Positions 6,085 to 29,896 of a DNA stretch of 32,812 nucleotides are shown here, piece after piece. The notes under the pieces are model-generated. The model had not been told where the DNA came from, did not search any database, and saw only the letters and a program-made list of their open reading frames with translations. This stretch comes from a virus. The stretch lies in IMG/VR virus record IMGVR_UViG_3300021356_000086, positions 1 to 32,812 of that record. One strand, 5' to 3'. Every line of letters starts with the position of its first letter. Within the stretch, counting starts at the first letter, position 1. Both the position numbers and the translations under genes were made by a program.

Positions 6085-6098
6085 TCTCTCATCACTTC

Positions 6099-6443: not shown

Positions 6444-6458
6444 TTGATCCCTTAAACA

Positions 6459-6483: not shown

Positions 6484-6502
6484 CGACGCACTTGTAATTA
6501 AA

Positions 6503-6727: not shown

Positions 6728-6736
6728 ACGAATCTC

Positions 6737-11009: not shown

Positions 11010-11818
11010 AATTTCTGTTTCTTTGGTACTAGTCTTCTTGGTCTTCTACTTAAAGCTTCGGGATATAATTGATTAGTATCTCTACGATTAACTGAGGATT
11101 GACTAATCAAATTCCATTGTTTACTAAACTCCTCGTTCCACGGTACATATTCTAGCTTCACCGGTTTAGAAAATAATAAATTAAACATAATTACATCGTG
11201 ATTTAGTAAACACTCTTCACGATCAAGATCAACCCACTCAAAAGCCCAAGATAAACCTCTAGACCAAGAGTGTATAGGCATAAATCCGGGTATTGTACTA
11301 ATAGGTAAATCTTTACCCACATTTCTATCACTAGGTAGTACATCCATCCATACTTCCGGATCGTCACAAAATAACATAACCGGCATAGATATTTGCATAG
11401 TAGGTACTCCCGGTCTAGCCCAACCTTCTTTTTCTTCAACAATAAGCTGATTAAAAGGTCCGTGGTGTTTTACATTACCGTAAAAATGTGCGTTAAAATC
11501 AAAACCACCGTATCTATCTACATCGTCAGCCAACTCATTTTTTCTCATTTTGATTTTTACATAACTATATGGAAAGTTAACTTCATATAATCTATTTCTC
11601 ATAAATTGTGTAGATACACAACCATTAGGGGCTTTTACAAACTTTTTAGGTAGTTCATAATTAACTGAGGGTAAAGCATTACTTTCCTCATTTTCTAATT
11701 GACCCCATTGTAAATTAGGTACGGGTACTGTGTATGCAACCCTAGGTGCGCTTCTGCTTATATCTTTCATAGGCTTTGACCATATATCAGTAATTCTAGG
11801 TATTGGACATTTACTCAT
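10988..11818 (-). CDS. Divergent DUF6065-like protein (copy B)
   Basis: The 276-aa protein is placed among the DUF6065-like genes and shows a related but divergent order of motifs: GWARPGVPTMQISMPVMLF in the place of TPPGWS, IPGFMPIHSWSRGLSWAFEW in the place of the VETD segment, and KPVKLEYVPW in the place of PFLHVIPFKR. The ETD and its His are not kept. The N-terminal 90 residues are Pro-rich and unlike the other copies, and the last 30 are basic. It may be an inactive or re-purposed member, perhaps a partner of the complete copies. Relationship by motif order only. Confidence 0.45.
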   Translation of the reverse strand: MSKCPIPRITDIWSKPMKDISRSAPRVAYTVPVPNLQWGQLENEESNALPSVNYELPKKFVKAPNGCVSTQFMRNRLYEVNFPYSYVKIKMRKNELADDVDRYGGFDFNAHFYGNVKHHGPFNQLIVEEKEGWARPGVPTMQISMPVMLFCDDPEVWMDVLPSDRNVGKDLPISTIPGFMPIHSWSRGLSWAFEWVDLDREECLLNHDVIMFNLLFSKPVKLEYVPWNEEFSKQWNLISQSSVNRRDTNQLYPEALSRRPRRLVPKKQKLWKEKKY

Positions 11819-12629
11819 CTATAACCCCCTCTTCTTTCCATATCTTTTTATTTTGTTGCGTAAGCCAACGGTAAAAACCGTTTTGTCTTGTTCTTTCCGC
11901 AGACCTGCTTTTTGAGTAATAAACTTTGTCTAAATCATCCATATCTCTACTTTCGTAGTCTTTTAAATCAAAACCACTTCTCTTGTAGGGTATTACTTGT
12001 ATTAGAGGCGTACCCTGTCTAAATGTTTTTTCACCAACTCCGTGATATATAAAAGGTATATTCATTTGATGATAAGAGTCAGTTTCTACAAGACTAGGCA
12101 TAATTTCTATTTCCCAAATACGATGATACCACGGCTGAGTTATGATAACTGACCAACCCGGTGGTGTCACTATATCCCACGGATTTGTAAATTTTAATGC
12201 TGTGTTAAAACTTGTAGGTTGAAAAGGCATATTACCTATGGACGCGGGATCGTGATATGTAATAGTTTCATTGTAAGCGTGCTTGTTGTACCAATTAAAT
12301 CCTGTTTGCTTATTATGACTAATTTTAAGATCAAGCCATAAAGGTATAATATATCCCGCCGTCATCATATCTTTTACAGTAGGACATTTTTTTAAAGAAT
12401 TATCTTTGTAAGGAACTGTATTCCAACTATCGTCGTCTTCTCTTAACTCTGTCCACTCTCTTTGTAAATGTTTGTACCAAGCAGGTATAAACTCTTTAGC
12501 AGGACGAGGTGGAGCTAGATCAACATATTCAGGATCACCTGTAAGGAATAAGATTTTATCGTCGCCAACTTTATGTTTTTTGACTTCTAAAAATCTACTA
12601 TATTCTTTTCGTTCCCACCATTTAGCCAT
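11811..12629 (-). CDS. DUF6065-like protein (copy C)
   Basis: The 272-aa protein carries the full motif set of copy A: FIPAWYKHL, KKCPTVKDMMTAGYIIPLW (80-98), NPWDIVTPPGWS (149-160), LVETDSYHQMNIPFIYH (180-196) and GTPLIQVIPYKR (206-217). The basic first 20 residues and C-terminal 50 residues differ from copy A. It overlaps its neighbours by 8 and 1 nt. Two complete and one divergent copy in one operon, plus another complete copy beside a tail fibre at 31577, suggest each serves a different structural protein or step. Confidence 0.6.
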   Translation of the reverse strand: MAKWWERKEYSRFLEVKKHKVGDDKILFLTGDPEYVDLAPPRPAKEFIPAWYKHLQREWTELREDDDSWNTVPYKDNSLKKCPTVKDMMTAGYIIPLWLDLKISHNKQTGFNWYNKHAYNETITYHDPASIGNMPFQPTSFNTALKFTNPWDIVTPPGWSVIITQPWYHRIWEIEIMPSLVETDSYHQMNIPFIYHGVGEKTFRQGTPLIQVIPYKRSGFDLKDYESRDMDDLDKVYYSKSRSAERTRQNGFYRWLTQQNKKIWKEEGVIDE

Positions 12630-13902: not shown

Positions 13903-14577
13903 TCATCCTCTTGGTAAATAAAAATCTGGTAATCCATCTGTGTCTATTTGATGACCTAACCATGTGACTATTGCATACTTAGTACCACTAATTATAGGCA
14001 TAGCCCTATGGGAATAAGCGTAATTGCTAGGAAACAAAACTAAAGCAGGTTTATCGGGTTTTACATTTTCGTCAAAGTGTATAAAATATGTACCGCCACC
14101 CTCATACTCAGCAGGATTTAAAAGTATTAGCGCACTTAAATATCTAGGCATGTGTGGTGCATAATCACAATGAGCTTTATATTCTTGACCGCCCTGATAA
14201 CGCAATAAAGTATATCCCTCGTCAAACATAATTGGAAACTCGTACTTTTTAGTGTATTCATTTACATACTCACTTAACTTTTGTGTTAGTAATTCTTGTA
14301 GGTTAGCTATATCTCTAAAGTACTTGTCATTACCATTTTTAACGGACTCTCTGTATAGTCTTGATTCTTTAGGTAAAAAGTAATGTTCAGTAATACCAAA
14401 AGTCTTATTTGACCTAATATCTCCGCCTTTGTGTCCTTTACCAACGGACGCGTCTTTAAAACCTAATTCAAATGTTTCGTCTTGATCAATATCTTCACAT
14501 ATTTTTATAATTGTTTTAGCTTGATCTTCTGTAATGAAATCCTCATAGATTTCAACACAACCCATAATTTTTTTCAC
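13903..14577 (-). CDS. Prolyl 4-hydroxylase-like 2OG-Fe(II) oxygenase (copy 1)
   Basis: This 224-aa protein has a complete 2OG-Fe(II) signature: H136-x-D138 in YKAHCDYAPHM, YLSALILLN and EGGGTYF as in prolyl 4-hydroxylases, distal H190 in FPSNYAYSHRAMPI, and K200 ten residues later for 2-oxoglutarate (SGTKYAIVTWLG). The length and 'GG-x-T ... P ... H ... G-x-R/K' order fit the P4H catalytic domain. Likely reaction: Fe(II)-, O2- and 2-oxoglutarate-dependent hydroxylation of proline or another residue in a protein. The start is GTG 14577 with GGGAG upstream, overlapping the previous stop as GTGA. Substrate unknown. Confidence 0.85.
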   Translation of the reverse strand: MKKIMGCVEIYEDFITEDQAKTIIKICEDIDQDETFELGFKDASVGKGHKGGDIRSNKTFGITEHYFLPKESRLYRESVKNGNDKYFRDIANLQELLTQKLSEYVNEYTKKYEFPIMFDEGYTLLRYQGGQEYKAHCDYAPHMPRYLSALILLNPAEYEGGGTYFIHFDENVKPDKPALVLFPSNYAYSHRAMPIISGTKYAIVTWLGHQIDTDGLPDFYLPRG

Positions 14578-15290
14578 GAAAACTCCCTCATCTTGATTTG
14601 GTCTATTGGATTACCATTATTATAGCTATCCATATCAAAATTACTACTAAGTGAAACTAAAAATGCAGACTTACGCCCGTTTAACAAAGGTGTTGTTGCG
14701 TGTGAATAAACAAAAGAACTAGGCATAATTACAACCGATCCGGCAGGTGGTTTATATGGATCAGCCTCCGGAAAGTATCTAAATTTTAAACTACCACCCA
14801 TAAAATTGTCATTGAGATAAGTTAATATAGTTATTCGACGCATATACGGTGCAATGTAATATTGATTTGTTTTAGGATTTCTAACTGAGTGATTGTCACT
14901 ATGATATGTCATGTGTTTTGGCGGACTATAAGTTATGTATTGGTACTTTTCTAACCAATTAACTTCTTTTTCTACATCTGGGTACAATTCAAAATATTGT
15001 GCTGCTTTGTTTAAAGCGTTTGCTTGTACTTGTTTTAAAAATTGATAATGTGTTTTTTTTGTAAATTGAGCTTCAGGATCAAATCTTATAGGTCCGTTAT
15101 CGTTATATAAAGATTTTGCTGCTTCGTCTGTTTTAGTAGATTCTAAAGTTTGTTCAGCTTTCCAATTATCTACATCTTCGTCCATAGATTCTATTATGCC
15201 GTCAGGTACTTCTAAACAATTTTCCCAAGCGACTACACCTCTAATAACTTCTTTAGGTGTACCACTTACCCATAAATTATTCTTCTTCAT
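14574..15290 (-). CDS. Prolyl 4-hydroxylase-like 2OG-Fe(II) oxygenase (copy 2)
   Basis: This 238-aa protein has H130-x-D132 in MTYHSDNHS, the P4H-like ITILTYLNDNFMGGSLKF strand, a PAGSVVIMPSSFVYSHATTP segment with distal H197, and R206/K207 (NGRKSAF) for 2-oxoglutarate. The first 90 residues form a separate helical part, with charged EQTLESTKTDEAAK. It is only distantly similar to copy 1, so the two probably act on different residues or proteins. It starts at ATG 15290 inside the end of the upstream gene (14-nt overlap) and ends in a GTGA overlap with copy 1. Confidence 0.85.
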   Translation of the reverse strand: MKKNNLWVSGTPKEVIRGVVAWENCLEVPDGIIESMDEDVDNWKAEQTLESTKTDEAAKSLYNDNGPIRFDPEAQFTKKTHYQFLKQVQANALNKAAQYFELYPDVEKEVNWLEKYQYITYSPPKHMTYHSDNHSVRNPKTNQYYIAPYMRRITILTYLNDNFMGGSLKFRYFPEADPYKPPAGSVVIMPSSFVYSHATTPLLNGRKSAFLVSLSSNFDMDSYNNGNPIDQIKMREFS

Positions 15291-16802: not shown

Positions 16803-17462
16803 TTAGACCTTAAATGTTTTTACATTACCGTCATTGTGTCCTGTGACATCTGTGGCTAGTCCTGTAAGTGGTATGTCTTGACTAACTATAAAAATTGCAC
16901 CACCACCGGTAGTAGATTCTCCTGTAGCATATACAGTTCCATAACCACTAATATTTCTTGCACATAAAACTACAATTCCACCACCTGCGTTTGTTGTATC
17001 TCCTGATCCGCCAACTACAGCTTCGGGTGTTGTTTGACCACCGTGTACAATAACTCCGCTTATAGCTAAGTCTGGGTGGTTAAAATATTCTATACCTTCT
17101 GTAGGTGCTGTAGCACTTGTACCATTTCCCGCACCACCAATACTGTTAGTTGCATTACCTGTAGTACCGCCTTTTAATGTTCCGTCTGTACTAGCTGCGC
17201 CTTTTCTACCTAATGAACAAGTAGCTTGTTCGCTTGGTGTACTAGATAACATTAAAGAGTTTCTAACAAAAACTCTATACCCTGCTGTGTTTAAATGTAT
17301 ATCGTCATTTATAGTTAAGTTGTTGTAGTGCATATCACGAGTCAATGTTGTATTAGATGATATTGTGACATTACCGTCATTACCTGAGCCATAAATACTG
17401 TCTGGTATCACATCAAAAGTTTCAAAGTCGCTTGGTACTACACCTATTTCTTTTATAGCCAT
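16803..17462 (-). CDS. Gly-rich fibre/adhesin protein (219 aa)
   Basis: The start at ATG 17462 lies one base after the upstream stop, with GGGAG six bases before it. A longer in-frame start at 17495 would run into the upstream gene. Residues about 25-70 contain GNDGNVTISSNTTLTRDM and HYNNLTINDD, a module shared with the upstream gene. The rest is Gly/Thr-rich beta structure (KGGTTGNATNSIGGAGNGTS, GGGIVVLCAR). Such Gly-rich beta proteins form tail-fibre shafts or tips. A virion receptor-binding role is likely. Confidence 0.65.
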   Translation of the reverse strand: MAIKEIGVVPSDFETFDVIPDSIYGSGNDGNVTISSNTTLTRDMHYNNLTINDDIHLNTAGYRVFVRNSLMLSSTPSEQATCSLGRKGAASTDGTLKGGTTGNATNSIGGAGNGTSATAPTEGIEYFNHPDLAISGVIVHGGQTTPEAVVGGSGDTTNAGGGIVVLCARNISGYGTVYATGESTTGGGAIFIVSQDIPLTGLATDVTGHNDGNVKTFKV

Positions 17463-17463
17463 T

Positions 17464-18792
17464 TTACGCTCCCGGATCTGTGTCGCTAGCAGCAATATTG
17501 TAAACCGTTAATACAGTTCCAGCACCTGCTGTTCCTGTACCACTCGTACCTGCGGCTGCTGCTAATGTCAAACCGCTAGGTAAAGGTTTTGTTCCCGAAA
17601 TTAAAATTACTGTTCCGCCCCCCGCGTTATACCCGTCTGATGCTGTTCCGCCTGAGCCACCTGCACCGCCGGGGTGATAAACTGTTGGGTTTGTGTTAGA
17701 AGGATTTGTACCGTAGTTGGTAGGGTTGCTTCCGTAGTTAGTTGGATTTGACCCGTAGTTTGCCCCATAATTAGTATTGTTAGACCCATAGTTTGTTGTA
17801 GGGTTATTACTTCCATAGTTTGTGTATGGATGTGAGTGGTTGTAGTGATAATGATAATATCCGGATTGATAGTTATTAATTGATGGACCGCCGTGCCAAT
17901 GATAATGTGTGTGAGGATTTGATCCGCTGTAAGAGTATGGGTTTCCGGGTGATGTGTAGGAATAGTTGTTCCCCGGATAGCTATATCCGTATGAATAGTT
18001 ATTTCCTGAATAAGAATAGTTATTTCCCGGATGTGTGTTTGTATTACCCGGAACTGTGTTTCCCGGTGTACTAGCGTCTGGTGCAGGAGCGCCTGATGTT
18101 CCATCCGTTCCAGCAGATGCGTCATCGCCGTCGGCTCTAACTGTACCGTCACCTACTATTGTCTTAGCAATAACTAAAACAACTCCACCGCCTACCGCAC
18201 CTGTACCCGCTGTTGCTGCATTACCGGTTGCACCTTTACCACCCGGCGCACCAACTGTTTGATAGTCACTCCAATTTGAGTCACCACCGTCTGCACCTGC
18301 TGCGGCGTTTGCTGTAATCGATCCGTCATCCCCACCAGATCCACCTCCTATAAACTTATAAGAGCCAGACGCAGGATCAAACTTTGACCCCTGTATAGCT
18401 ACTGTTAAATTAAAAAATTCGTTTTCCCCACTAAAAAATTTGTTTGCGTTATGTGCTGAGTCTGATTGTGATCCTGATTTACCGCCTAATGTGTCAGTTG
18501 CTGCTGTACCTTTAGCAAAGCCACCCTTAAGAGTTCCTACAGTAGTTTTGTTTGTAAATCTACCTATTCTTGAAGTGCTATCTGTAAATGTAAGTGTTCC
18601 TTTGACAAAGATACGATAGCCGTTGCTATCTAATGTACAGTTAGCATTTATTGTTAAATTGTTGTAGTACATATCTCTTGATAGTGTGGTATTTGAGGTT
18701 ATTGTGACATTGCCATCTTGTCCAAAACCATATACTTCATCACCACCAAGTCTGTCTAAAAAGACCGGCTCGGGTATTTCTATGGAAGGCAT
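17464..18792 (-). CDS. Gly-rich fibre protein with Tyr/Asn/Pro/His low-complexity insert (442 aa)
   Basis: The N-terminal part (GQDGNVTITSNTTLSRDM, YYNNLTINAN) is homologous to the next gene product, and the Gly-rich frame (GGGSGGDDGS, TAGTGAVGGGVVLVIAK, AGGGTVILISGTKP) looks like a stacked beta fibre. Between about residues 244 and 373 it is interrupted by a low-complexity stretch built from PGNNYSYSG, YGYSYPGNNYSY, a His/Tyr run (PHTHYHWHGG, YYHYHYNHSH) and NYGSNPT repeats. Proline, tyrosine, serine and threonine there are candidate sites for the hydroxylase-like and glycosyltransferase-like enzymes of this operon, and the histidines could bind metal. It probably is a virion surface protein. 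Confidence 0.7.
   Translation of the reverse strand: MPSIEIPEPVFLDRLGGDEVYGFGQDGNVTITSNTTLSRDMYYNNLTINANCTLDSNGYRIFVKGTLTFTDSTSRIGRFTNKTTVGTLKGGFAKGTAATDTLGGKSGSQSDSAHNANKFFSGENEFFNLTVAIQGSKFDPASGSYKFIGGGSGGDDGSITANAAAGADGGDSNWSDYQTVGAPGGKGATGNAATAGTGAVGGGVVLVIAKTIVGDGTVRADGDDASAGTDGTSGAPAPDASTPGNTVPGNTNTHPGNNYSYSGNNYSYGYSYPGNNYSYTSPGNPYSYSGSNPHTHYHWHGGPSINNYQSGYYHYHYNHSHPYTNYGSNNPTTNYGSNNTNYGANYGSNPTNYGSNPTNYGTNPSNTNPTVYHPGGAGGSGGTASDGYNAGGGTVILISGTKPLPSGLTLAAAAGTSGTGTAGAGTVLTVYNIAASDTDPGA
17672..18062 (-). repeat. Degenerate repeats encoding a Tyr/Asn/Pro/Ser/His-rich segment
   Basis: Short imperfect units of 9-15 nt encode NYGSNP-, PGNNYSY- and HYH-like repeats. Codons vary between units, so the repetition is older than very recent slippage. 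The segment interrupts an otherwise Gly-rich beta fibre. Confidence 0.7.
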
Positions 18793-19129: not shown

Positions 19130-19585
19130 CTATAATCCCAACCACTGTAAAGCTTCAGTAGTATGTAATTGTTGTGCTTTCACTTTTACCATTGCACTTG
19201 CAGAGTTGTCATAAAGCATAACTAAATCGTTATCTTCATCTACATCAATACTTGTACCGTCGGTAAGTCTTGTAGCATCTATAACAAGTGTGACCGCCCC
19301 ACTATCAGCACCACCGTCCAAACCAGAAGTAGCCGCGGTTGTGACAACTGTGACATCCCCTGCTTCTATTGACTGCCAACTTGAGCCATTGTACACTTGA
19401 AGTCTTGAATCTGTGCTGTTGTATATAATTTCACCGGTAGTAGCCGAACTTATTGCATCTCTTTGCGTTGTAGTAAAACTAGGTATTAACGGTCCGCCAT
19501 CGGTTGATCCGGCGACAAATTCACTAAAACCGGTAGTATCACCACTAGTCGTGACTACTCTAATTAAATGTTTTCTATTTGCCAT
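19130..19585 (-). CDS. Tail-fibre-like protein with YNGSSW motif (151 aa)
   Basis: The N-terminus (FSEFVAGSTDGG) resembles the start of other phage fibre proteins. Residues about 38-70 hold TQRDAISSATTGEIIYN followed by RLQVYNGSSWQSI, a widespread phage fibre motif also found in the product of 22317..22565. The rest is beta-rich and Thr/Asp-rich (DGTSIDVDEDNDLVMLYD). It is probably a fibre shaft or connector. Confidence 0.65.
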   Translation of the reverse strand: MANRKHLIRVVTTSGDTTGFSEFVAGSTDGGPLIPSFTTTQRDAISSATTGEIIYNSTDSRLQVYNGSSWQSIEAGDVTVVTTAATSGLDGGADSGAVTLVIDATRLTDGTSIDVDEDNDLVMLYDNSASAMVKVKAQQLHTTEALQWLGL

Positions 19586-19647: not shown

Positions 19648-20484
19648 TTAATTCCATACTCTTGCTAAAAACCAACAAGTGTGATTAGTTGTTGTTCCAT
19701 CATTGTTATAGTGTCTATTACTATCATTTCTAGTAATATTTCCTTTCCATGTATAACCTGTTCCATCATCAACATGTGTATTAAAACCACCAGAAGATTC
19801 TTGATGAGGTGGATCTGGAACTAACCTACCACCATCATTACTTAAACTGTAGTTGTAATGTATTCTATTGGATGTAAATGCTCTTCTACCTGTACCACCT
19901 GAAATCATATCACTATCGTTGTAATACCAACCTCTTGATGTACTTCCACCAAGATAGTAGTTCATAGTTTGAGTTGTACTATGTTTGTAAGATTTCCAAC
20001 TTACATCGTTATTATGATCTTCAATAATCAACAATTCGTTCCAAGAAAAATGATTCCAAGTTTCTAATTTTAAATTTTTCTTTACAAGTGAAGTCCAAGA
20101 AGAGTGAGAAGTACCCTGTGAATCTTCAAATACTGTAGTGTTCATATATTGACCTTTCCACCAATTTCTTGTGTCTCCATATACATTGGTTGCAGAAAAC
20201 AATAAAACATAAGATTTTCCTGAGTTTTGATAATTTATTTCACACCAAGCTAAATCTGTATCAGTGCTGTTATTGTTTATATAATATAAACCACTTGTAG
20301 CAGCAGGGTTGTCTGTATATATAGCATCGGCACTTGAAGCAGGTGCATCTACTGATTCTCCTAAACCTAAAGCCCACTCATTATCAGCTTGCATAATGTG
20401 TTGCTCATTTACACCAAATAAACCTGATTTGGTAGATGTTCTATAATTTCTTGGTTTTTTACCACGCATTCTTCCATAAGCCAT
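19648..20484 (-). CDS. Adhesin with possible fibrinogen-related domain (278 aa, copy 1)
   Basis: The N-terminal 40 residues (GRMRGKKPRNYRT, SGLFGVNEQHIMQADNEW) are shared with the product of 21203..21976 and probably fix the protein to the tail. The central part (SGLYYINNNS, DLAWCEINYQNSGKSYVLLF) resembles the 'G-x-Y-x-I ... v-x-C-x-M ... G-x-W' opening of fibrinogen-related domains, followed by WNHFSWNELLIIEDHNNDV. The C-terminal part is rich in Trp, His, Asn and Gly. A receptor-binding role is inferred from modular structure and location. The domain assignment is tentative. Confidence 0.55.
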   Translation of the reverse strand: MAYGRMRGKKPRNYRTSTKSGLFGVNEQHIMQADNEWALGLGESVDAPASSADAIYTDNPAATSGLYYINNNSTDTDLAWCEINYQNSGKSYVLLFSATNVYGDTRNWWKGQYMNTTVFEDSQGTSHSSWTSLVKKNLKLETWNHFSWNELLIIEDHNNDVSWKSYKHSTTQTMNYYLGGSTSRGWYYNDSDMISGGTGRRAFTSNRIHYNYSLSNDGGRLVPDPPHQESSGGFNTHVDDGTGYTWKGNITRNDSNRHYNNDGTTTNHTCWFLARVWN

Positions 20485-21194
20485 TAGACAATACCCCTTC
20501 CATTGTAATAAGTGTAAAGTTGTCCTATTTCACTCAAACTTAAATTTCGACTATATATAAGAATTGCGTAAAGCTTTCCACTATCAAATTGATAGCTACC
20601 ATAATAATTAAATCCAAAACCAGACCAATTAAAATCTGCATTAACAAAAGAGATCATGATCGCACTAGAAGTTCTTATATTGTCATATAAGTTATAACGA
20701 ATATTAGAAGATGAATTATTTTTATACACAGCACCTATGCTTACATTAGAATAATAACCTTTATTACCTGACCTATAAGCACCTAGATAATCTCCTCCAC
20801 CTGTATTACCATTGCTGTCAAAAAGAGATTGTGTATCTGTAGTTTGCATTACATAAATAACTGTTCTGTTGCTACCTAAAATACCTGTTTTAGAAACTTG
20901 AAAATTAGTAGCTAAGTTGAAATATCCACTTGAGTTCCAATTAGGATTTGTTAATGTTGCGTGATTATTATTACCACTAAGGTCTGTCCAAGTAGTTCCA
21001 GAGCCACTATAACTAGGTTGTTTACCTGCATCCCATTCAACTGTTAAGTTTGAAGTGACAGGAATACCACCTGTATTCTTAGCATTAGTTTCTATAAGGT
21101 GTATGTTTTCGTCATTATTAAAATTACCACTATTTTGTTGATCGGTCATAGTAGGTCTTCCTGCCTTAAATCCATATATACCTCTATCGCTCAT
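20484..21194 (-). CDS. LamG/concanavalin-A-like lectin-domain protein (236 aa)
   Basis: After a 50-residue N-terminal part, TVEWDAGKQPSYSGSGTTW, then TDLSGNNNHATLTN, is the classic opening of phage LamG-like domains. The end, KLYAILIYSRNLSLSEIGQL, followed by YTYYNGRG, is the equally typical closing motif ('iYnR-x-L-s-x-x-E-i-x-q-x-y'). These domains bind glycans and are common on tail fibres and capsid decorations. The gene shares a base with the next start and lies between two paralogous adhesin genes. Confidence 0.8.
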   Translation of the reverse strand: MSDRGIYGFKAGRPTMTDQQNSGNFNNDENIHLIETNAKNTGGIPVTSNLTVEWDAGKQPSYSGSGTTWTDLSGNNNHATLTNPNWNSSGYFNLATNFQVSKTGILGSNRTVIYVMQTTDTQSLFDSNGNTGGGDYLGAYRSGNKGYYSNVSIGAVYKNNSSSNIRYNLYDNIRTSSAIMISFVNADFNWSGFGFNYYGSYQFDSGKLYAILIYSRNLSLSEIGQLYTYYNGRGIV

Positions 21195-21202
21195 AATATT
21201 TC

Positions 21203-21976
21203 CTAACTATATACATAGACATTTACTCTATCTAGTGAGTGAGTATTGCCACCATAAGAATAACCACCTGAAAATGTGCAACCATTACCATGCGCCCAAC
21301 CCTCTGTGCCACCATGACCACTCCAAGTCCATGTAAAACTTCTTTCACAGTTATTAGGTCCTGAATCTCCCCAACCTGTTCCTGTTTCTGTCCAACTATT
21401 AGTTCCACCATTCCATAAAGATGTATATCTTTTGTACTGTGCATCATAACCTGTGCTAGATGAATTAAATGTTGACCAATAAAATGTTCCATTTTGTTGC
21501 CCTATAAGTCTTAAAGAATCACCATATAATCTTCTATTTATGACCATGTGTAAGTCATTCCAATCTCCAATCAACTCATCAATCCAAGTAGCTTGAAGGT
21601 AAGCAACTGTATTACTTCCTAAATTGCTTGAAATCATATTATTTTGATTTAAGCCTGAGTTATTCCACCAATCACCATTTCTACCAACAGCTACTAAAGT
21701 TAAGCCTTTTCCTGATACTGTACTTTGAGAAAAATTTACATAAACTAATCTTGTTGCTTGTGCTGCAGCAGGTTTGATGTAGTAATTACCATCTGTTTGT
21801 GTATATTGATATATTTCTGCTGCATTTTCAGCAGGATTCTGTTCTATTTCTCCCGGAAAACTTGACCACTCGTTATTTAGTTGTGCATCGTGTTGTGCAT
21901 TAACACCATAAAGACCTGAACGAGTTTGACTATTATAATTTCTAGGTCTATTACCACGCATCCTACCTCTTGGCAT
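21203..21976 (-). CDS. Adhesin with possible fibrinogen-related domain (257 aa, copy 2)
   Basis: The N-terminus (GRMRGNRPRNYNSQTRSGLY, then GVNAQHDAQLNNEW) is the same anchoring module as in the product of 19648..20484. The following DGNYYIKPAAAQATRLVYVN and GKGLTLVAVGRNGDWWNN again resemble the start of a fibrinogen-related domain, although the usual Cys is replaced. The C-terminal third is rich in Trp and Gly (GTGWGDSGPNNCERSFTWTW) and has little similarity to copy 1. A conserved base with a diverged tip is typical for receptor-binding proteins under selection. Confidence 0.55.
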   Translation of the reverse strand: MPRGRMRGNRPRNYNSQTRSGLYGVNAQHDAQLNNEWSSFPGEIEQNPAENAAEIYQYTQTDGNYYIKPAAAQATRLVYVNFSQSTVSGKGLTLVAVGRNGDWWNNSGLNQNNMISSNLGSNTVAYLQATWIDELIGDWNDLHMVINRRLYGDSLRLIGQQNGTFYWSTFNSSSTGYDAQYKRYTSLWNGGTNSWTETGTGWGDSGPNNCERSFTWTWSGHGGTEGWAHGNGCTFSGGYSYGGNTHSLDRVNVYVYS

Positions 21977-21984
21977 GGCTACTC

Positions 21985-22314
21985 CTAGGTTATTTCAAGA
22001 ACTGATAAAACTATTTCGAGGTCTCCTGTTGCACCTGCCCAAGCTCTTACCTGATCTCCCGCCTCTAAAACTAACTTACCACCAATAGGGTTGAATGATG
22101 AGTCGGCAGGTATAGATATAGTATGAGCAAGAGCGCTAGCCGCAGTAGTCGAAGAATCGTAATAATCAACATATAAATCTGCTGCATTAGTACCGTCAAC
22201 ATTTGATACCTGACACAATATAACAATAGCTTCTGTTGAAGCTGGACATTGATATATAGAGGTATCTGCTGTAGTACCTAAACTAGCTTGTACTGATTTA
22301 AACGCTTCTGCCAT
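21985..22314 (-). CDS. Small beta-domain virion protein (109 aa)
   Basis: I place the start at ATG 22314 (MAEAFKSVQASLGT), with AGGTGG six bases upstream. The longer in-frame ATG at 22383 lies deep in the upstream gene. The protein has strands TEAIVILCQVSN, AADLYVDYYDSS, ALAHTISIPADSS, GKLVLEAGDQVRAWAG and DLEIVLSVLEI, as in small phage fibre or decoration domains. It is the likely relative of the product of 18792..19121. Confidence 0.65.
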   Translation of the reverse strand: MAEAFKSVQASLGTTADTSIYQCPASTEAIVILCQVSNVDGTNAADLYVDYYDSSTTAASALAHTISIPADSSFNPIGGKLVLEAGDQVRAWAGATGDLEIVLSVLEIT

Positions 22315-22316
22315 AA

Positions 22317-22565
22317 TTATCCACCTAACGCTAGGACTAGACCAATACTTGCTCCACCTGATCCGGTAGAAACTGAGTCCCAACTACTACCATTGTAAAC
22401 CTCTATTTTTGAAGTTGTGGTATTCCAGATCACTTCCCCGGCTGACACACCTGATAATGCATCTCTATCGGTAGTTGTGTAAGCTTTTAAACCAACGGGT
22501 ACTGTAAAATCTACACTTGCACCTGTCGATCTTGGTCTTATCTCATTTACTTTTAATATTGACAT
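22317..22565 (-). CDS. Short fibre protein with YNGSSW motif (82 aa)
   Basis: The protein begins MSILKVNEIRPRSTGASVDF, an opening shared by many short phage fibre proteins ('i-x-V-d-x-I-x-p'). It carries TTDRDALSGVSAGEVIWN and KIEVYNGSSWDSV, the motif also seen in the product of 19130..19585. A short Gly-rich end follows. It is probably a fibre connector. Confidence 0.65.
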   Translation of the reverse strand: MSILKVNEIRPRSTGASVDFTVPVGLKAYTTTDRDALSGVSAGEVIWNTTTSKIEVYNGSSWDSVSTGSGGASIGLVLALGG

Positions 22566-22580
22566 TTATTCTCCTATGGT

Positions 22581-23276
22581 TTATGTTTTCCTATATCCAT
22601 ATACTTGTACATTTGCTGTTGTAAAATTATTTCCATTTTCTAAATATAATTTAAAACCTGTATTTGTATTGCTACCATCATCTTGAATCCAACTACCCCA
22701 TCTTTGTTGTATTTCTGTTGAAGACCTTTGAAGGCTGTGATACCAACCCATGTGTCTTGTCTTAGAGTTTGGTGTAGTATAGGCGTTATAAAGCTCAAGA
22801 GTGTGTACACCAGATACCGGCATTGTTGAAGCAATAGTTCCAAAACACCCTACATAGTTTTGATTGAATCCTTCGTGTCCTGAAGCACTTGGGTCTCCAG
22901 AGCTATCGCTATCATTTGTTCTATGGAACATAGCGTGAAAATCAATAGTGCTAGATGTGTAATCAGCATTACTTCCTGATGAGCCTGTCCTATAAGACAA
23001 AAATAATTTATTACTTCCTGTATCTGCCATTAAATCGGTTGCAATTATTTTGTAGTTGTCGTAAGTGCTTGAAAATACATTATCAAAAGTTAATGCTGAA
23101 ACATCAGCATCTGAATCCCCAACTACTTGAGATGATAAAAATACTAATCCTGCTTGATTTATTGCACTAACATCTACTCCATCTACTTGTCCGTCTTTTA
23201 TATTTACTCCATCAATAGTCACTCCATTAGCGGAAGTATTTTCACTTATAGTATCTACTTTTATTTCACTAGCCAT
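22581..23276 (-). CDS. Tail-fibre tip protein (231 aa, copy 1)
   Basis: The N-terminal module, IKVDTISENTSANGVTIDGV with NIKDGQVDGVDVS, is shared with the product of 23306..23983. The remainder is a beta domain ending in FTTANVQVYGYRKT. DNVFSSTYDNYKIIATDLM is a typical phage fibre tip motif ('v-F-t-s-t-Y-d-n-Y-x-i'). The tip differs strongly between the two copies except for that motif and the end (VQVYGY / VRVYGY). Receptor binding is likely. Confidence 0.7.
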   Translation of the reverse strand: MASEIKVDTISENTSANGVTIDGVNIKDGQVDGVDVSAINQAGLVFLSSQVVGDSDADVSALTFDNVFSSTYDNYKIIATDLMADTGSNKLFLSYRTGSSGSNADYTSSTIDFHAMFHRTNDSDSSGDPSASGHEGFNQNYVGCFGTIASTMPVSGVHTLELYNAYTTPNSKTRHMGWYHSLQRSSTEIQQRWGSWIQDDGSNTNTGFKLYLENGNNFTTANVQVYGYRKT

Positions 23277-23305: not shown

Positions 23306-23983
23306 CTATAAGTTGTACCCATATACTCTTACATTACAACTAAAATTATTACCACCAGATGTTTCAAGTCTTATACCTGTAAATTGAGTTGTTTCTGGAA
23401 ATCTATATTCAACATCGGCTCTTCTATAGTTTCCATTGTAATATTCCACTGATTCTTGCTTTTGGAATGTTTGAGTTGCTTTGTTAGGATTTCTAAATTT
23501 ACACTCAGACCAACCAACATAACTAGAGCCTACACCAGAGTTTGCCCACCAATGAATCCATCCATAATCTGCTGTTTGACCTGTGTTAGCACCCTGTGTT
23601 CCTTGAGCATTATCATTAAAATCTTGCCACCAAAAAGCGTATGTATAAGTATCTAAAGTTGCATCAGAGCCACTAGCTCCACCTGTTCTAAATCGAAATC
23701 GTAAATATTCACTAGCTGTTCCATAAGTAATATCGTTAAATTGCAATAAATAATTATCGTATGTTGTAGTAAATATATTGTCTAAATCAGTACCACTTGT
23801 GTTTACTGAACTGAAAGATTCATTTTTTATAAGTGTCAAACCCGGTGCCATATTTCCTACTGTTGTATTTAAAGCAGAAACATCTACTCCATCTACTTGT
23901 CCATCTTTTATATTTACACTGTCTATGGTGACACCATTAGCAGCAGTTTGTTCGTTTATTGTATCTACATTAAGTTCGCTCAT
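23306..23983 (-). CDS. Tail-fibre tip protein (225 aa, copy 2)
   Basis: I choose ATG 23983 (MSELNVDTINEQTAANGVTI), which has AAGGA nine bases upstream and aligns with the start of copy 1. An upstream in-frame ATG at 24070 would add 29 residues overlapping another gene. Shared features are the NIKDGQVDGVDVS module, DNIFTTTYDNYLLQFNDITY and the end NNFSCNVRVYGYNL. The tip core is Trp-rich (YAFWWQDFND, WIHWWANSG). Confidence 0.7.
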   Translation of the reverse strand: MSELNVDTINEQTAANGVTIDSVNIKDGQVDGVDVSALNTTVGNMAPGLTLIKNESFSSVNTSGTDLDNIFTTTYDNYLLQFNDITYGTASEYLRFRFRTGGASGSDATLDTYTYAFWWQDFNDNAQGTQGANTGQTADYGWIHWWANSGVGSSYVGWSECKFRNPNKATQTFQKQESVEYYNGNYRRADVEYRFPETTQFTGIRLETSGGNNFSCNVRVYGYNL

Positions 23984-24215
23984 TATGGTAATTCCTTCCT
24001 TTACCTGCAAAATAGTTTTCAGGATCGTATTTTGAGTCCACCATCTCTTGTAGTGTTTTACCACCCTCATTATTATACTTTACGCCATCGTCGAAATCGC
24101 TCCTTTCCAACCTGTTGATCTCCCTTTTTTTATCGTCAATAATAAGACGGACTATAAATCCAAGACCATAGCCAAGAGCTACAGAGCCTAGTATTATAAT
24201 TATTTGATCTGTCAT
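23970..24215 (-). CDS. 81-aa single-pass membrane protein
   Basis: Residues 4-26 (IIIILGSVALGYGLGFIVRL) form a transmembrane helix, followed by a basic and then mixed-charge cytoplasmic part (DDKKREINRLERSDFDDGVK) ending in Gly/Tyr/Asn-rich sequence. It overlaps the giant fibre gene by 4 nt upstream and the next fibre gene by 14 nt. No family is recognised. A membrane protein amid fibre genes is unusual. Confidence 0.65.
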   Translation of the reverse strand: MTDQIIIILGSVALGYGLGFIVRLIIDDKKREINRLERSDFDDGVKYNNEGGKTLQEMVDSKYDPENYFAGKGRNYHNERT

Positions 24216-27200
24216 ACAACCACCAATGTTCCGGCTACATCAACAGTACCCTCTATATCTAGTGGTCCTGCAGCAACTGTACCGGTGTTTGCAGTAATAG
24301 TAAAAGTTTCACCTGACGCAAGTGTTGTTCTATGTATAAAGAAACCACCATTTGCTGACATTGTTGCATTATTGTCAATTATCATTCTTTCTGTACCGGC
24401 GGTATCTATTCTTACTTTGTCCTCGTCGGAGCTTTCCTCTACATGAACTCTTGTATCGCCATCAGCGTCTTCTATATTTGTAGGTCTTTGAGGTACAAAG
24501 TTTGTTCCGTTATAAACTAAGCTATCTCCGGTAGCTAAACCTGTTGTATCTGCATTAGTTAAATCATTAACGGCTAAAGAGCCACCACTATCTGCCCAAC
24601 TAATTGTTCCTGATCCGTTTGTTGTAAGCACCTGTCCATTTGTACCTGCACCACCGTTAATTTTAAATTTTGCAGATTTAAGATCAAATACACCATCCGA
24701 CTCAATCCTAACTCTTTCAGTACCTGCGGTAGATATTCTTATATCATCAGCGTCGGTTGTTGCTTCTACCTGTATCTTTGTATCGTTGTCATTATCTCTA
24801 AATGCTGTTGCACTAGCACTTGTAGAAGTAATTTGTATTGGGTCGGTTGTACCGTCTGTAAGTGTGACATCAATATCCGTACCTGTGCTACCAAGATTTA
24901 AAAATTCAATAGGGTCACTAGAACTATCGGCTAGTGTTAATGGTGCTTCACCTGTTAGAGAAGATCCTGATCCTGATACAAGATTACTCTTTGTGATCTT
25001 CTTATAACTAGTTGTACTTGTATCATATACAAGTAATACATCGTCGTCGGCCACGCTTGCACTTGTTAGTGCTGACTTACCTGTTAAGAAAGTAGTTGTA
25101 AGTCCTGTAGCATTACCTTCAAAAGTACCCGCCACAAAAGTTTCACTACCTACTGTCCATTTATCATTTGTTTCATCCCAAACTAATGTTTTGTTAGTAG
25201 CTGATCCTCTTTCTATTTCTATACCACCGTCTTGTGATGGTGATCCTGTTTCGTCGCTATTAAGAGTTATGACACTATCACCAATGTTTACTGTATTAGA
25301 GTTAACTGTTGTAGTTGTACCTGATACGGTAAGGTTTCCTGTAATAGTTGCATCTCCGCCAACTGATATGTCATTTGTGACTGTTAAATCATTTCCAATA
25401 GTTGTATCACTAGGAAGTCCAATAGTTATTGTTCCTGAACTTTCAGCAACCTCTACTTCATTAGAAGTTCCTGAAAATGTAATAGTTCCACCCAAAGCGG
25501 TAGCTGTTGAGTTTGATCCGTCGGTGACTGTTATAGAACTATTAGCTAACTTTGAATTAGGTATGCTTGCGGTACTTAACTCACCTGTTGTTGAATTGTA
25601 TGATAAACCTGATCCTGACGCTGCAGATATTGCACCCCTAGCTCTTGCATTAGTGAAATATAGATTTGTACTACCTTCACTTGTATTGTCAGTTGTAAGA
25701 CCTACATTTACCCAAGCACTACCGTTGTATCTTAATACTTCGTTAGTAGCTAAAGATGTAAGCGTGACATCGCTAAGTTGTGATATAGCTGAACTAGCGT
25801 CACCCGGAATCCATTTAGAGCCAGACCATTTTAACGCTTGCCCAGAAGTTGGGGCTGATGTGGCCGTATCAACATCACTTAAATCATTTATAGAAACTGT
25901 ACCAAAATCAATATCTACTTCATTATTAGAAGTATCGTCCGTAATAGTTATTTTTGAAGATCCCGCATTAAGTTTCTTAAACTGTAGATCTTCACCGACT
26001 TTACCGTCAAATAGTCCTACACCTGCTGTTCCAATGTTAGATGCTGTGTTTGTTTCACCAGACCCAGACAAACCAGATACAGAGGCTAAAGCAAAGCTAC
26101 CTGCGGAATTGTCCCAAGATACAACTTTTTGATCTTCGTTTGAGCCGGGTGCGGAAAAACCTACATTAGCTAAGTCTTGCAAATTTGCTAGAGCTATTCT
26201 CGCGTCTGCTCTTGCGTTTGTATAGTAAAGGTTTGACCCTTCGGCTAAATCGCTTGTAGTGTTATTTGAAAGATCATCTTCGGTGTCTGTTGACGCAATA
26301 GTTAAAGTATTTGCTGCGTCGTCATAAGTTAGGGATATATTACTACCTGCTGTTAGTAAATTATTTACACGATCATCTACTCTTTCTTCGGTAAAGTATT
26401 TGTTGTTAGTACCTTCGCTTAAATCGTCGGTATTGTTATTAGATAAATCATCTTCTGTATCAGTTGAGGCGATTGTAAGTGTATTAGCATTATCGTCATA
26501 GGTAAGTGTAATATTTGACCCTGCTGTTAATAAGGCGTTTACTCTATCGTCAACCCTTTCGTCTGTAAAGTATTTATTTGTACCCTCTGTCAAATCACTA
26601 GTAGATTTACCGCTAAATGCTGTGTTAAATCTTGTTGATGTGTAATAAAGGTTTGTGCTACCCTCACTTAAGTCGTCTGTATCTTTAGCTGTAAATGCAC
26701 TATCAAATCTAGCTTGTGTGTAATAAAGATTACTTGATCCTTCACTTAAACTATCTGTGTCGTGATTTGCTATTGAGGAAACTGTACCTGTGACATTACC
26801 TGTTAAGTTTCCTGTAAATGTAGAGTGAATACTTCCTGCGTCAAACCTCTCGCTACCAACAGTCCATTTATTATCTGTTTCTTCCCAAATTAAAGTGACA
26901 TTTGTAGAGCTTCCGCGCTCAACTTCTATACCTGCATCTTCACTAGGCGTTCCTGTGACATTGTTGTTTAATACAATTATGTTGTCATCAACTGTCAATG
27001 TTTCGGTATTCAAAGTTGTAGTAGTACCACTTACTGTTAGATCTCCTGAAACTACTAAATCGTTAAATGTGACATCGCTTGTTGTTGAAACAGCCTGCGG
27101 TATAGAAATTTGACCACCAGATAGTGTTATACCTGTACCTGCTGAAAAATGTGACCTTACTTCTGTTGCACTTGGTCCTGTATATGTTATGACACCCGTT

Positions 27201-29896
27201 GATGAATTGTAAGCTAAAGACCCGTCGCCACCGCTATCTGTGACGGAAATAGCACTACGAGCTCTAGCGTTAGTAAAGTAAAGATTTGATGTTCCCTCGC
27301 TTAAATCATCTGTATCACTTGCACTTAAAGAAGTTCCCTGTACTGATACAACAGCGTCCCCACCCATACCTGAGTGATGTTGACAATAATAGTAAAGAGT
27401 GTCTGCGGTTGCTGCGTCAACAACTATTTGTGTATAAGCACCCGAGCTACCCGGCGTTCCGTTGTAGCTTACACCGGTAGTGTATTCTGATCCTGATCCG
27501 TGTGTACCATTTTTAGTTGTAGAAAATTTAAGTGGGTGTCCTGAGTTAGAGCTATCACTAGTATCAAACCTATAAGTGATACCCGGAAGTAATTGAATAC
27601 TTGCTGTTGTTTCGCCGTCTAGGTGATATTTGTTTCCGCTTACATTTGCAACCGTGACATCAAACTCAATAATTGCTGTGTTGTTTTCAAAGTTTATTGT
27701 CTTATTGGTTAGTGTATCTGTAGAGCTTTCGGTCACTACAGTACTATCTATTGCTATTGTGCCAGACGAGTAATCTATACCCGTACCACCTGATAAGTGA
27801 CTATCAACTCTTGCAGTTGTAAAGTATTGATTTGACCCCTCACCAATATCATCTGTGTCTAAAGTTAAAGTACCACCTAAAGCAAGTGAGTTTGAATTTA
27901 TTGTGACAGAGCTATTAGCAAGATTGGAATTTGGAATAGCAGATAAGTTAAATACACCTGTTGAAGAGTTATATGTCAAACCAGAACTAGCTGTAGCACT
28001 AACCGAAGCTCTAGCTCTTGCGTCTGTGTAGTAAAGATTAGAAGATCCTTCTGTAAGATTGTCTGTGTCTTTCGCTGCTAATCTTGTGTCAAATCTAGTA
28101 TCTGTATAATAAAGATTTGTTCCTTCACTTAAATCACTAGTTGACTTACCTGAAAACGCAGAGTCAAACCTAGCGGTAGTGTAATATAAATTAGAAGATC
28201 CCTCACTTAAACTATCAGTATCATGGTTAGCAATACTTGAAACTGTACCTGTCACATTACCGGTGACATTACCGGTCAAATTACCCTCAAATGTAGAGGC
28301 TACAAATGTTTCAGTTCCTATTGTCCACTTGTCTGTAGTTTCATTCCAAACAAGAGTTTTATTAGTTCCGTCACCTCTCTCAATTTCAATACCACCGTTT
28401 TCGGTTGGCGATCCGGTTGCATTGGAATTAAGAACAATAACATTGTCTGCTAAATTTATAGTTTCAGTATTTACGGTAGTTGTTGTACCGGAAACAGTTA
28501 AGTCACCTGAAACAACTAAGTCATTAAAAGTCACATCACTTGTAGTGCCAACTGCCTGACCAATACTTATTTGACCTGAAGATAGTGTGACACCTGTACC
28601 TGCGCTAAAGTGCGCTCTTACTTCAGCGGCGCTTGGACCGGTATAAGTAAACACACCTGTAGAATTGTTGTAAGCTAAACTACCATCTCCACCTGAGTCT
28701 GTGACTGATACAGAAGTTCTAGCTCTAGCATTTGTAAAGTATAAGTTAGAAGATCCCTCGCTTAAGTTATCGGTATCTTTACTAGCAAGTCGTGTATCGA
28801 ATCTTGTATCGGTGTAATAAAGGTTTGAAGATCCTTCACTTAAGTTATCTGTGCTAAAAGGTGATAAAGATACAGTTGCGTCTATTGCACCATCATTTGC
28901 ATCGTCATAAGCAAAAGATATACCTGTATGCGATCCGTTTGTGACAAACTGCGCACCTACTATATCTTGTGCCTCTTCTGTACCAACGGCAGCCGATATT
29001 GTTAATGTACCTGCACCATCTACATAGCTAAGAGTTATATTGTCACCGGCTTGTAAAAGCGTAGCAACTTGATCGTCAACTCTTTCAGTAAGGTCTGCTG
29101 TTATTTCGCTAAGGTCAGTTGTAAATGTTAATGTACCTGAGCTTTCGCTAATATCAACACCCGCACCACCTGTAAATGTGACAGTACCACCTAAGCTTAT
29201 TGCTGAGGAGTTTGATCCGTCACTAAAAGTCAAGCTTGAATTACTAAATGCAGAGTTAGGTAAATTAGTAAATGTGTTTGACCCACCGTCTAAGGTTTTA
29301 TTTGTTATTGTATCGGTAGAAGTTTGTGTAAGTATTTCGTCATAAGTACCACCTTCACCCAATACCCAACGATTAGTAGATACATCATAAAAAAGTCTTG
29401 CGTCGTCTGTATCGCTTGTGTCAACAATAATACCTGCGTCAGCTTCGCTATTACCTGTATTTAATTTAACAAAAGCGTCGTCAACAGTAATAACTGTAGA
29501 GGTTGTACTAGTAAGTTCACCCTGAACATCTAAATTACCCTGAATTGTTGCTGATCCTGAAAGTGTTAATCCTGTAAATGTTGGTGAGTCGCCCGTACCT
29601 ATACCTAAACTTGTTCTTGCAGTTGCACCACTTTCTACCTGCCACGCTGTACCTGTCGATACGATAAATGCACCATCCGAGTGAACAAGATTTGATATTG
29701 TAGTTAAATCGGCGTCATAAGCTTGTACATTCGATCCTATTTGTAAACCTAGACCAATTCTTAAATCTGCTAAAGAAGAATACGATCCACCTGTACCACC
29801 ATCGTCTAGTCCTACATAATCGGCGCTTTGAAACTCAGCAAAACCGTCAGGATTACTCCCGTCATAATTCAGCCTTATTGGATTCTTTTCTGCCAT
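24212..29896 (-). CDS. Giant repetitive tail fibre (1,894 aa) with a cupredoxin-like domain
   Basis: The start (PIRLNYDGSNPDGFAEFQSA) and TSLGIGTGDSPTFTGLTLSG are typical of long phage fibres. The body repeats DLSEGSSNLYYT-type units (more than ten copies, with DTRFDTRLA or NARARxxxS tails) and three copies of a larger unit containing GDLTVSGTTTTVN, NGGIEIERG and KTLVWNETTDKWTIG. Residues about 742-853 form a different domain: a beta part with GHPLKF (H787) and YYYCQHHSGMGG (C838, H841, M844), the ligand set of a type 1 copper protein. The last 60 residues contain a beta tip (ETFTITANTGTVAAGPLDIE). No signal peptide or membrane helix is seen. It forms a long tail appendage. Glycan binding by its tip is probable but not shown. 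Confidence 0.85.
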   Translation of the reverse strand: MAEKNPIRLNYDGSNPDGFAEFQSADYVGLDDGGTGGSYSSLADLRIGLGLQIGSNVQAYDADLTTISNLVHSDGAFIVSTGTAWQVESGATARTSLGIGTGDSPTFTGLTLSGSATIQGNLDVQGELTSTTSTVITVDDAFVKLNTGNSEADAGIIVDTSDTDDARLFYDVSTNRWVLGEGGTYDEILTQTSTDTITNKTLDGGSNTFTNLPNSAFSNSSLTFSDGSNSSAISLGGTVTFTGGAGVDISESSGTLTFTTDLSEITADLTERVDDQVATLLQAGDNITLSYVDGAGTLTISAAVGTEEAQDIVGAQFVTNGSHTGISFAYDDANDGAIDATVSLSPFSTDNLSEGSSNLYYTDTRFDTRLASKDTDNLSEGSSNLYFTNARARTSVSVTDSGGDGSLAYNNSTGVFTYTGPSAAEVRAHFSAGTGVTLSSGQISIGQAVGTTSDVTFNDLVVSGDLTVSGTTTTVNTETINLADNVIVLNSNATGSPTENGGIEIERGDGTNKTLVWNETTDKWTIGTETFVASTFEGNLTGNVTGNVTGTVSSIANHDTDSLSEGSSNLYYTTARFDSAFSGKSTSDLSEGTNLYYTDTRFDTRLAAKDTDNLTEGSSNLYYTDARARASVSATASSGLTYNSSTGVFNLSAIPNSNLANSSVTINSNSLALGGTLTLDTDDIGEGSNQYFTTARVDSHLSGGTGIDYSSGTIAIDSTVVTESSTDTLTNKTINFENNTAIIEFDVTVANVSGNKYHLDGETTASIQLLPGITYRFDTSDSSNSGHPLKFSTTKNGTHGSGSEYTTGVSYNGTPGSSGAYTQIVVDAATADTLYYYCQHHSGMGGDAVVSVQGTSLSASDTDDLSEGTSNLYFTNARARSAISVTDSGGDGSLAYNSSTGVITYTGPSATEVRSHFSAGTGITLSGGQISIPQAVSTTSDVTFNDLVVSGDLTVSGTTTTLNTETLTVDDNIIVLNNNVTGTPSEDAGIEVERGSSTNVTLIWEETDNKWTVGSERFDAGSIHSTFTGNLTGNVTGTVSSIANHDTDSLSEGSSNLYYTQARFDSAFTAKDTDDLSEGSTNLYYTSTRFNTAFSGKSTSDLTEGTNKYFTDERVDDRVNALLTAGSNITLTYDDNANTLTIASTDTEDDLSNNNTDDLSEGTNNKYFTEERVDDRVNNLLTAGSNISLTYDDAANTLTIASTDTEDDLSNNTTSDLAEGSNLYYTNARADARIALANLQDLANVGFSAPGSNEDQKVVSWDNSAGSFALASVSGLSGSGETNTASNIGTAGVGLFDGKVGEDLQFKKLNAGSSKITITDDTSNNEVDIDFGTVSINDLSDVDTATSAPTSGQALKWSGSKWIPGDASSAISQLSDVTLTSLATNEVLRYNGSAWVNVGLTTDNTSEGSTNLYFTNARARGAISAASGSGLSYNSTTGELSTASIPNSKLANSSITVTDGSNSTATALGGTITFSGTSNEVEVAESSGTITIGLPSDTTIGNDLTVTNDISVGGDATITGNLTVSGTTTTVNSNTVNIGDSVITLNSDETGSPSQDGGIEIERGSATNKTLVWDETNDKWTVGSETFVAGTFEGNATGLTTTFLTGKSALTSASVADDDVLLVYDTSTTSYKKITKSNLVSGSGSSLTGEAPLTLADSSSDPIEFLNLGSTGTDIDVTLTDGTTDPIQITSTSASATAFRDNDNDTKIQVEATTDADDIRISTAGTERVRIESDGVFDLKSAKFKINGGAGTNGQVLTTNGSGTISWADSGGSLAVNDLTNADTTGLATGDSLVYNGTNFVPQRPTNIEDADGDTRVHVEESSDEDKVRIDTAGTERMIIDNNATMSANGGFFIHRTTLASGETFTITANTGTVAAGPLDIEGTVDVAGTLVVV
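25100..28548 (-). repeat. Three copies of a ~110-residue fibre module, plus many short SEGSSNLYYT repeats
   Basis: Module copies lie at about 28210-28548, 26750-27090 and 25100-25400. Each reads VSGDLTVSGTTTTVN or close, then a VIVLNS/N strand, GGIEIERG, TLVWNETTDKW and TFEGNLTGNVTG-like ends. Between them the SEGSSNLYYT unit recurs. The copies differ in codons, so duplication is old or the sequence is under strong protein-level selection. Confidence 0.8.

Follow-up and report, generated by a model that had tools for sequence, protein, structure and literature searches.

The window analysed here is the whole of IMG/VR virus record IMGVR_UViG_3300021356_000086, 32,812 bases with a G+C content of 36.6% and an array of long open reading frames (ORFs) on the minus strand. 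Within it, ORFs 19648-20484 (278 amino acids, aa) and 21203-21976 (257 aa) encode sister proteins, named below by their first coordinate, and a 236-aa ORF (20484-21194) sits between them, all three on the minus strand. In this uncultured marine phage the array adjoins the downstream side of a gene for a tail fibre protein of 1894 aa. It is made of short adhesin-like proteins, among which common N-terminal parts with different ends recur. A sequence-only reading, which placed the pair at the correct coordinates, had described the locus as a cassette array of receptor-binding proteins with a common docking peptide.

Each sister protein opens with a leader of 43 residues, located at 21848-21976 in the 21203 gene, where it is a putative virion-attachment segment, and at 20356-20484 in the 19648 gene (minus strand); the two leaders are 58% identical. 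Their motifs read GRMRGKKPRNY or GRMRGNRPRNY and SGLFGVNEQH or SGLYGVNAQH, just as that first description had it. It had credited the pair with about 40 common N-terminal residues carrying GRMRG-x-x-PRNY and SGL-x-GVN-x-QH, and the comparison below bears this out. The motifs vary in a related viral contig, L001, which has GRMRGKRPRDY, SGLYTVNSQH, and SGLFGVNEQM.

The two proteins align at 31% identity across 182 aa (BLASTP, E 2e-17), and this similarity fades in steps. When segments of the pair were tested against 1000 shuffles each, aa 1-43 gave a z of 19.3, a score attained by none of the shuffles. The following segments scored far lower: z 2.9 for aa 44-83 (9 of 1000 shuffles), 3.4 for aa 84-172 (1 of 1000), and 3.6 for aa 101-172 alone (4 of 1000). 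In the C-terminal parts, the last third, similarity was undetectable by the same test (z -2.1; 990 of 1000). A comparison of profiles, each built from one protein and its L001 orthologue, gave E 1e-15 across aa 1-172 (hhalign). Because of these shuffled segments and the profile alignment, similarity within the pair is described as strong in the 43-residue leader, weak in a middle part reaching to about aa 172, and unrecognisable in the last third. The leader is therefore rejected as the sole common part. The earlier claim that the tips share almost nothing holds for the last third, but its boundary was drawn too early. The gene in between was also considered as a third paralogue and rejected, as its protein matches 21203 only at E 0.12 and lacks the GRMRG leader.

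The domain behind the leader

The post-leader parts of 19648 and 21203 most likely represent a single fibrinogen-like domain type that has diverged between them, not unrelated cassettes. The putative domain spans aa 44-257 of 21203 (21206-21847, minus strand) and aa 44-278 of 19648 (19651-20355, minus strand). Its reference group is NF040941, the NCBIfam fibrinogen-like GGGWT_bact domain, which has a YCDxxxxGGGW signature and a curated cut-off of 30 bits. Homology to accepted members runs through two proteins of another viral contig, L002, that both score above this cut-off (L002:5755-6798, 34.2 bits; L002:4770-5753, 57.1 bits). Residues 59-255 of 21203, most of the domain, align with the former, a distant relative, at E 2e-12, and residues 41-89 of 19648 align with the latter at E 2e-5 (both BLASTP). 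L002:4770-5753 in turn matches Protein Data Bank (PDB) chains of fibrinogen (best E 8.4e-5) and intelectin-1 (1.3e-4), as well as Pfam Fibrinogen_C at 2.4e-5, above the cut-off; L002:5755-6798 reaches 0.0014 with the same family, below it. The two L002 genes (4770-6798) are adjacent and have their own shared leader (MATL...NDTGF), forming a parallel pair of fibrinogen-like proteins in another viral contig.

Two further comparisons point in the same direction. A protein of cyanophage S-RIM14 (Sn110110_032; 66.9 bits against NF040941) aligns weakly with 19648 (E 1e-4), and the domain start PA-x-SA...I...SGLY-x-I aligns between the window pair, this protein, and L002:4770-5753. A scan of the whole L001 record matched the 19648 orthologue to NF040941 below the cut-off (E 5.4e-4, 16.4 bits); as a control, 3 of 14 genomes gave a match at E<=1 and none of the 14 exceeded the cut-off. 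A short stretch of the fibrinogen-like domain also occurs in the freshwater Actinomycetia phage DSL-LC01 (41.5% identity over 20% of the query).

A predicted structure of 21203 suggests a likeness at the level of the fold to animal ficolin, FIBCD1, intelectin-1, and FGL1, proteins which differ from it in origin, the window being that of a phage, and share 8-18% identity with it in the listed rows. With Foldseek, the best match of the model is FGL1 (E 7.6e-4, TM-score about 0.3, root-mean-square deviation (rmsd) 11.8), and all of the best 50 of 116 matches are titled as fibrinogen or fibrinogen-like entries. A second structural comparison gave a best Z of 7.6 (rmsd 3.8 over 139 residues); intelectin-1 reached Z 6.4 (rmsd 5.0 over 172 residues).

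Several results weigh against a fibrinogen-like assignment, beginning with the structural ones. The 21203 model is of modest confidence (mean predicted local distance difference test score, pLDDT, 55.6; predicted TM-score 0.58), and that of 19648 is unusable (pLDDT 32.9). Just one of the Foldseek matches reaches E<=0.001, TM-scores at the head of the list are about 0.3 with rmsd near 12, and a Z below 8 can reflect a mere common arrangement, according to the tool's own note. The L002 proteins were part of the folding alignment for 21203, so its fold is not independent evidence. Searches of the PDB with profiles tell the same story: profile A1, made from window and L001 sequences alone, found no fibrinogen-like chain among its three matches at E<=10 (best 0.096, crustacyanin), and profile A6 found no match at all. 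Profile A3 likewise returned none. Profile A8 did retrieve a serum lectin (E 1.2e-6) and intelectin-1 (6.1e-6), matches that are probably carried by its L002 sequences.

The family libraries are no more generous. Against NF040941, 19648 scores 17.3 bits (E 0.0037), under the cut-off of 30, and its L001 orthologue, tested as a protein, scores 13.9 bits (E 0.041), outscored by a chance-level match at E 0.024. Neither 21203 nor its L001 orthologue matches this model. The single NCBIfam match of 21203 is at chance level, and its implied identity as a tetracycline resistance protein was dismissed (E 0.047, 11.9 bits against a cut-off of 1425). Pfam gives no family at E<=1 for either sister protein, and PHROGs give nothing for 21203 and a weak match for 19648 (E 0.018). 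In both translations the YCDxxxxGGGW signature is lost, the corresponding place reading WCEINYQNSGKSYV in 19648 and YVNFSQSTVSGKGLTL in 21203. A cyanophage S-SM1 protein related to L002:4770-5753 neither aligns with 19648 (best E 1.3) nor matches NF040941.

Considering the sequence comparisons together, both proteins are probably diverged relatives of the fibrinogen-like group, yet they are not called members of NF040941 since neither of the two features tested, cut-off and signature, is present; their leader differs from those of the group as well. The pair probably consists of paralogous adhesin-like proteins of a marine phage host-recognition module, each made of a leader and a diverged fibrinogen-like domain. 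A duplication would have produced two copies of an adhesin-like gene. The short basic leader (aa 1-43) may attach each protein to the virion, while the globular domain that follows (aa 44 to the end) may bind a glycan on the host surface. In animal fibrinogen-like lectins the ligand pocket is part of the C-terminal third. With this third diverging and the sequence before it, leader and early domain, remaining recognisable, the two copies may see different ligands. The array would be completed by further short proteins that follow the fibre gene and by the protein separating the two copies, which is probably LamG-like.

Conservation and possible tip exchange in the array

Conservation was measured against a single relative, L001, in which nine orthologous genes, the counterparts of 22317 through 16803, keep an unchanged order. 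The fibre-proximal part of the array differs, with seven genes in L001 against two to three in the window. Orthologue identities are 86% for 21203, 92% for 20484, and 82% for 19648. By segment, identity in 21203 drops from 91% (aa 1-43) to 57% (aa 44-80) and then stands at 88-94%; the figures for 19648 are 74%, 73%, and 82-90%, respectively. The proportion of nonsynonymous differences (pN) is below that of synonymous ones (pS) in every segment of 19648, 20484, and 21203, and from residue 81 on pN is 0.03-0.15 against a pS of 0.38-0.61. What varies between the window and L001 is the junction of leader and domain in 21203 and the front part of 19648, not the tips. Uniform conservation had been named as the outcome that would speak against exchangeable tips. 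Conservation of the tips roughly equals or exceeds that of the leader, which leans towards refutation on the strength of this one relative.

The GRMRG leader is not a widespread docking tag at the search sensitivity used, because one IMG/VR contig alone was confirmed to carry it and none of 50,697 phage records did. In IMG/VR, 20 stretches fitted the pattern and two were confirmed, both in one locus, the L001 contig, with no other contig represented; in the phage records the 43-residue leader found no match at E<=10. The full proteins are similarly isolated. No match to 21203 or 19648 was found in the phage records by tblastn (E<=0.01), and IMG/VR scans gave little beyond the L001 contig (two loci for 21203; one locus from 53 pattern stretches for 19648; two loci from 38 for 20484). 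A scan with an L002 protein gave six loci, itself and five others that were examined. These five share the L002 leader segment, and no fibrinogen-like domain was seen in them by eye. In the genome collection, none of 70 pattern stretches found with profile A6 was confirmed.

A second leader, SE[IL]-x-VDTI-x-E-x-T-x-x-NG, is common to two genes upstream of the pair: 22581-23276 (MASEIKVDTISENT) and 23306-23986 (MSELNVDTINEQT; start taken at an internal Met), both on the minus strand, whose adhesin-like products are 35% identical over 243 aa. In IMG/VR, 397 stretches fitted the pattern of this leader and 134 were confirmed. The best 80 of the 134 stretches (80 loci), together with two proteins from the window and two from L001, made a set of 84. 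Exclusion of 14 without a stop codon within the locus and four shorter than 90 aa left 66 complete proteins, at most 65 of them distinct, as L025 is the same gene as L001:2954-3418. The tips, taken as everything beyond residue 45, were joined by single linkage wherever BLASTP gave E<=1e-5 across 50 aa or more, and fell into six clusters of 53, 6, 3, 2, 1, and 1, so that 53 of the 66 share one tip type. The cluster of three includes L001:1503-2663, which has an extra C-terminal part. L001 carries the second leader on a 386-aa protein whose distal part is faintly like the LamG-like gene (E 0.018).

These data bear on the cassette explanation, in which a common docking peptide carries unrelated, interchangeable tips that are swapped by recombination and widen the host range. 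The sharp leader similarity of the pair against none in its last third is what such an arrangement would produce, as are the second leader (SE-x-x-VDTI-x-E-x-T) ahead of six tip clusters and the occurrence of the fibrinogen-like domain on different leaders in L002 and S-RIM14. For the GRMRG proteins it is nonetheless unlikely, given their homology beyond the leader, the conserved tips of their L001 orthologues, and a leader confirmed in the L001 contig alone. Of the original proposal, then, the fibre-adjoining array with its recurring shared N-terminal parts stands, and the unrelated tips of the pair are not supported. The cassette idea would suit the SE-x-x-VDTI-x-E-x-T leader better, which by its sequences appears the better candidate for an exchangeable docking leader.

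The gene between the pair (20484-21194) encodes a small protein of 236 aa without the GRMRG leader, probably LamG- or concanavalin-A-like by sequence comparison. It was first described simply as LamG-like, and this is probable through a homologue, although the protein has no Pfam match of its own: no family appears at E<=1, so the Laminin_G_3 gathering score is not reached. Its PHROG matches are families without known function (best 5.6e-8). By tblastn, four of the phage records match it at E<=0.01. The homologue, from Synechococcus phage S-H9-2, aligns with aa 44-113 at E 1e-12 and carries Laminin_G_3 (Pfam PF13385; 2.8e-16 for the whole protein, 1.3e-16 for its C-terminal part alone); the window protein itself falls below what Pfam detects. 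The significant alignment covers aa 75-147 of the S-H9-2 protein, stopping just before the Pfam stretch (aa 152-293). A forced alignment passes through that stretch at 35% identity and shows a common C-terminal IY-x-R-x-LS-x-SE motif. A protein of phage S-SKS1 aligns at E 3e-8 and as a whole has Laminin_G_3 at 5.7e-24; the aligned part finds no Pfam match on its own.

The remaining members of the array are all on the minus strand. At its head lies the long, repetitive fibre protein (24212-29896), matched to the structural family phrog_697 at E 1.9e-70. Closer to the pair, 22317-22565 encodes a short protein whose VYNGSSW segment is shared with 19130-19585 (BLASTP, 51% over 43 aa) and which matches the tail fibre families phrog_1325 and phrog_30742; 19130-19585 was itself placed by PHROG and BLASTP comparisons. 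A 109-aa protein of unassigned function (21985-22314; start at an internal Met) has a 93% identical L001 orthologue, and its longer ORF matches phrog_1276. At the far end, a Gly/Asn/Tyr/His-rich protein (17464-18792) has its N-terminal part in common with 16803-17495 (BLASTP, 53% over 79 aa). Beyond them, on the array's far side, lie two genes for 2-oxoglutarate (2OG)-Fe(II) oxygenases (13903-15290, minus strand). The order in cyanophage S-SM1 is likewise fibre, short proteins, and then 2OG-Fe(II) oxygenases, and one of these short proteins is homologous to L002:4770-5753 (36.7% identity over 97% of the query).

This neighbourhood also informs two other explanations. The sister proteins could be minor decoration proteins of the virion or baseplate, structural rather than receptor-binding. 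Receptor binding is a prediction for the pair, and some of its array neighbours match just structural PHROG families or those of unknown function; the likely lectin-type folds and the adhesin-rich surroundings make such a role quite unlikely. That they are non-virion proteins, secreted or intracellular and unrelated to recognition, is highly improbable. Their leader matches nothing in the Pfam, PHROG, and NCBIfam libraries and their presence in the virion is deduced from the genes alone, but they lie on one strand with the fibre array, closely spaced, in an order conserved in L001. Moreover, the L002-related protein of S-SM1 and the fibrinogen-like protein of S-RIM14 occupy a similar position after the fibre.

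Paralogous adhesin-like proteins thus remain the preferred interpretation of the pair, and a broader scheme may be built upon it. L002, S-SM1, and S-RIM14 have leaders of the form P-x-G-x-TAQRP...Y[NT]G-x-x-W on their fibrinogen-like proteins. Conceivably, though this is doubtful, several leader families in one locus of a phage of streamlined marine actinobacteria address lectin-type domains to the virion, giving a particle with mixed glycan-binding heads; GRMRG would be a lineage-specific tag, unrelated to the leaders of those three.

Host hints and marine recognition modules

Some genes elsewhere in the window hint at the host. A single-cluster ferredoxin gene (9500-9763, minus strand; Pfam Fer4_15, 1.5e-18) is possibly an auxiliary metabolic gene and host marker. 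None of the 50,697 phage records matches it at E<=1e-5, and at least 573 relatives were confirmed in genomes. Among the best 80, 75 are actinobacteria by title, with OCS155 presumably among them, and five are not (L110, L128, L138, L159, and L177). Among the matches listed, the top identity (75%) belongs to a Ca. Actinomarina genome and to one of the OCS155 cluster, and the lowest E-values to other Acidimicrobiia and one bacterium. For a MRE11-type exonuclease, the best 20 of 975 matching phage records are Streptomyces and Arthrobacter phages, at about 31% identity; the 975 include phages with hosts of other phyla. The fibre stretch 24212-26212 counts against an actinobacterial host, as its one DNA-level match to a phage lies in Roseobacter phage CRP-207 (225 bases, 69.8%). 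From these sequence matches, a marine acidimicrobial bacterium would be a fair guess for the host. There are descriptions of phages with Ca. Actinomarina or Ca. Actinomarinales as the assigned host, according to the portions of the reports considered here (PMC3861242, PMC7771536).

Further minus-strand genes of the window stand apart from the array. The proteins of 9760-10506, 11811-12629, and 31577-32341 look alike by eye; the first matches DUF6065 under the cut-off and the third over it, and 11811-12629 matches phrog_7084 at 1e-52. A 927-aa protein (3301-6084) contains two long runs of Thr and starts, judged by eye, like a signal peptide; at E<=0.01 neither PHROGs nor Pfam has a family that matches it. 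Two adjoining glycosyltransferase-like genes occupy 282-2094, with a Pfam GlcNAc match for 282-1115 and phrog_24687 for 1093-2094.

Published work already describes variable recognition modules of marine phages that contain lectin-like and fibrinogen-like genes, as far as the passages drawn on here show, and the window pair adds to this general idea. In metaviromic islands, frequent genes encode carbohydrate-binding, tail fibre, C1q-like, and lectin-like proteins, Fe(II)-dependent oxygenases, and a fibrinogen-like coiled coil protein, and the C-terminal regions of tail fibres are more variable than the N-terminus (PMC3909814, in excerpt). Pelagimyophages have a host-recognition cluster with putative receptor-binding proteins that contain concanavalin A and other domains (PMC7029224, in excerpt). 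Like these modules in their excerpted descriptions, with their lectin-like, fibrinogen-like coiled coil, concanavalin A, and Fe(II)-dependent oxygenase genes, the window locus is fibre-adjacent (PMC7029224, PMC3909814). A long fibre gene lies next to it, and several of its proteins have putative binding domains. The modules in those excerpts belong to pelagimyophages, cyanomyophages, and relatives of pelagiphages, whereas the window phage may infect actinobacteria and has its three genes conserved in one relative. The 'fibrinogen-like coiled coil protein' of the excerpt (PMC3909814) is likened to the window domain by name alone. In the literature library used, searches for fibrinogen-like domains in tail or receptor-binding proteins of phages found no paper, and among the matches listed for fibrinogen with cyanophage or myovirus, none was on the subject by title.

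The module is an ordinary, though sparsely annotated, part of the way in which marine phages probably recognise their hosts. The analysis gives likely functions to two phage proteins that lack Pfam families and ties them to a fibrinogen-like recognition fold, and the second leader family offers a better place for studying the exchange of tips. If the host is indeed actinobacterial, the window would contribute candidates for the recognition genes of phages that infect uncultured marine actinobacteria.

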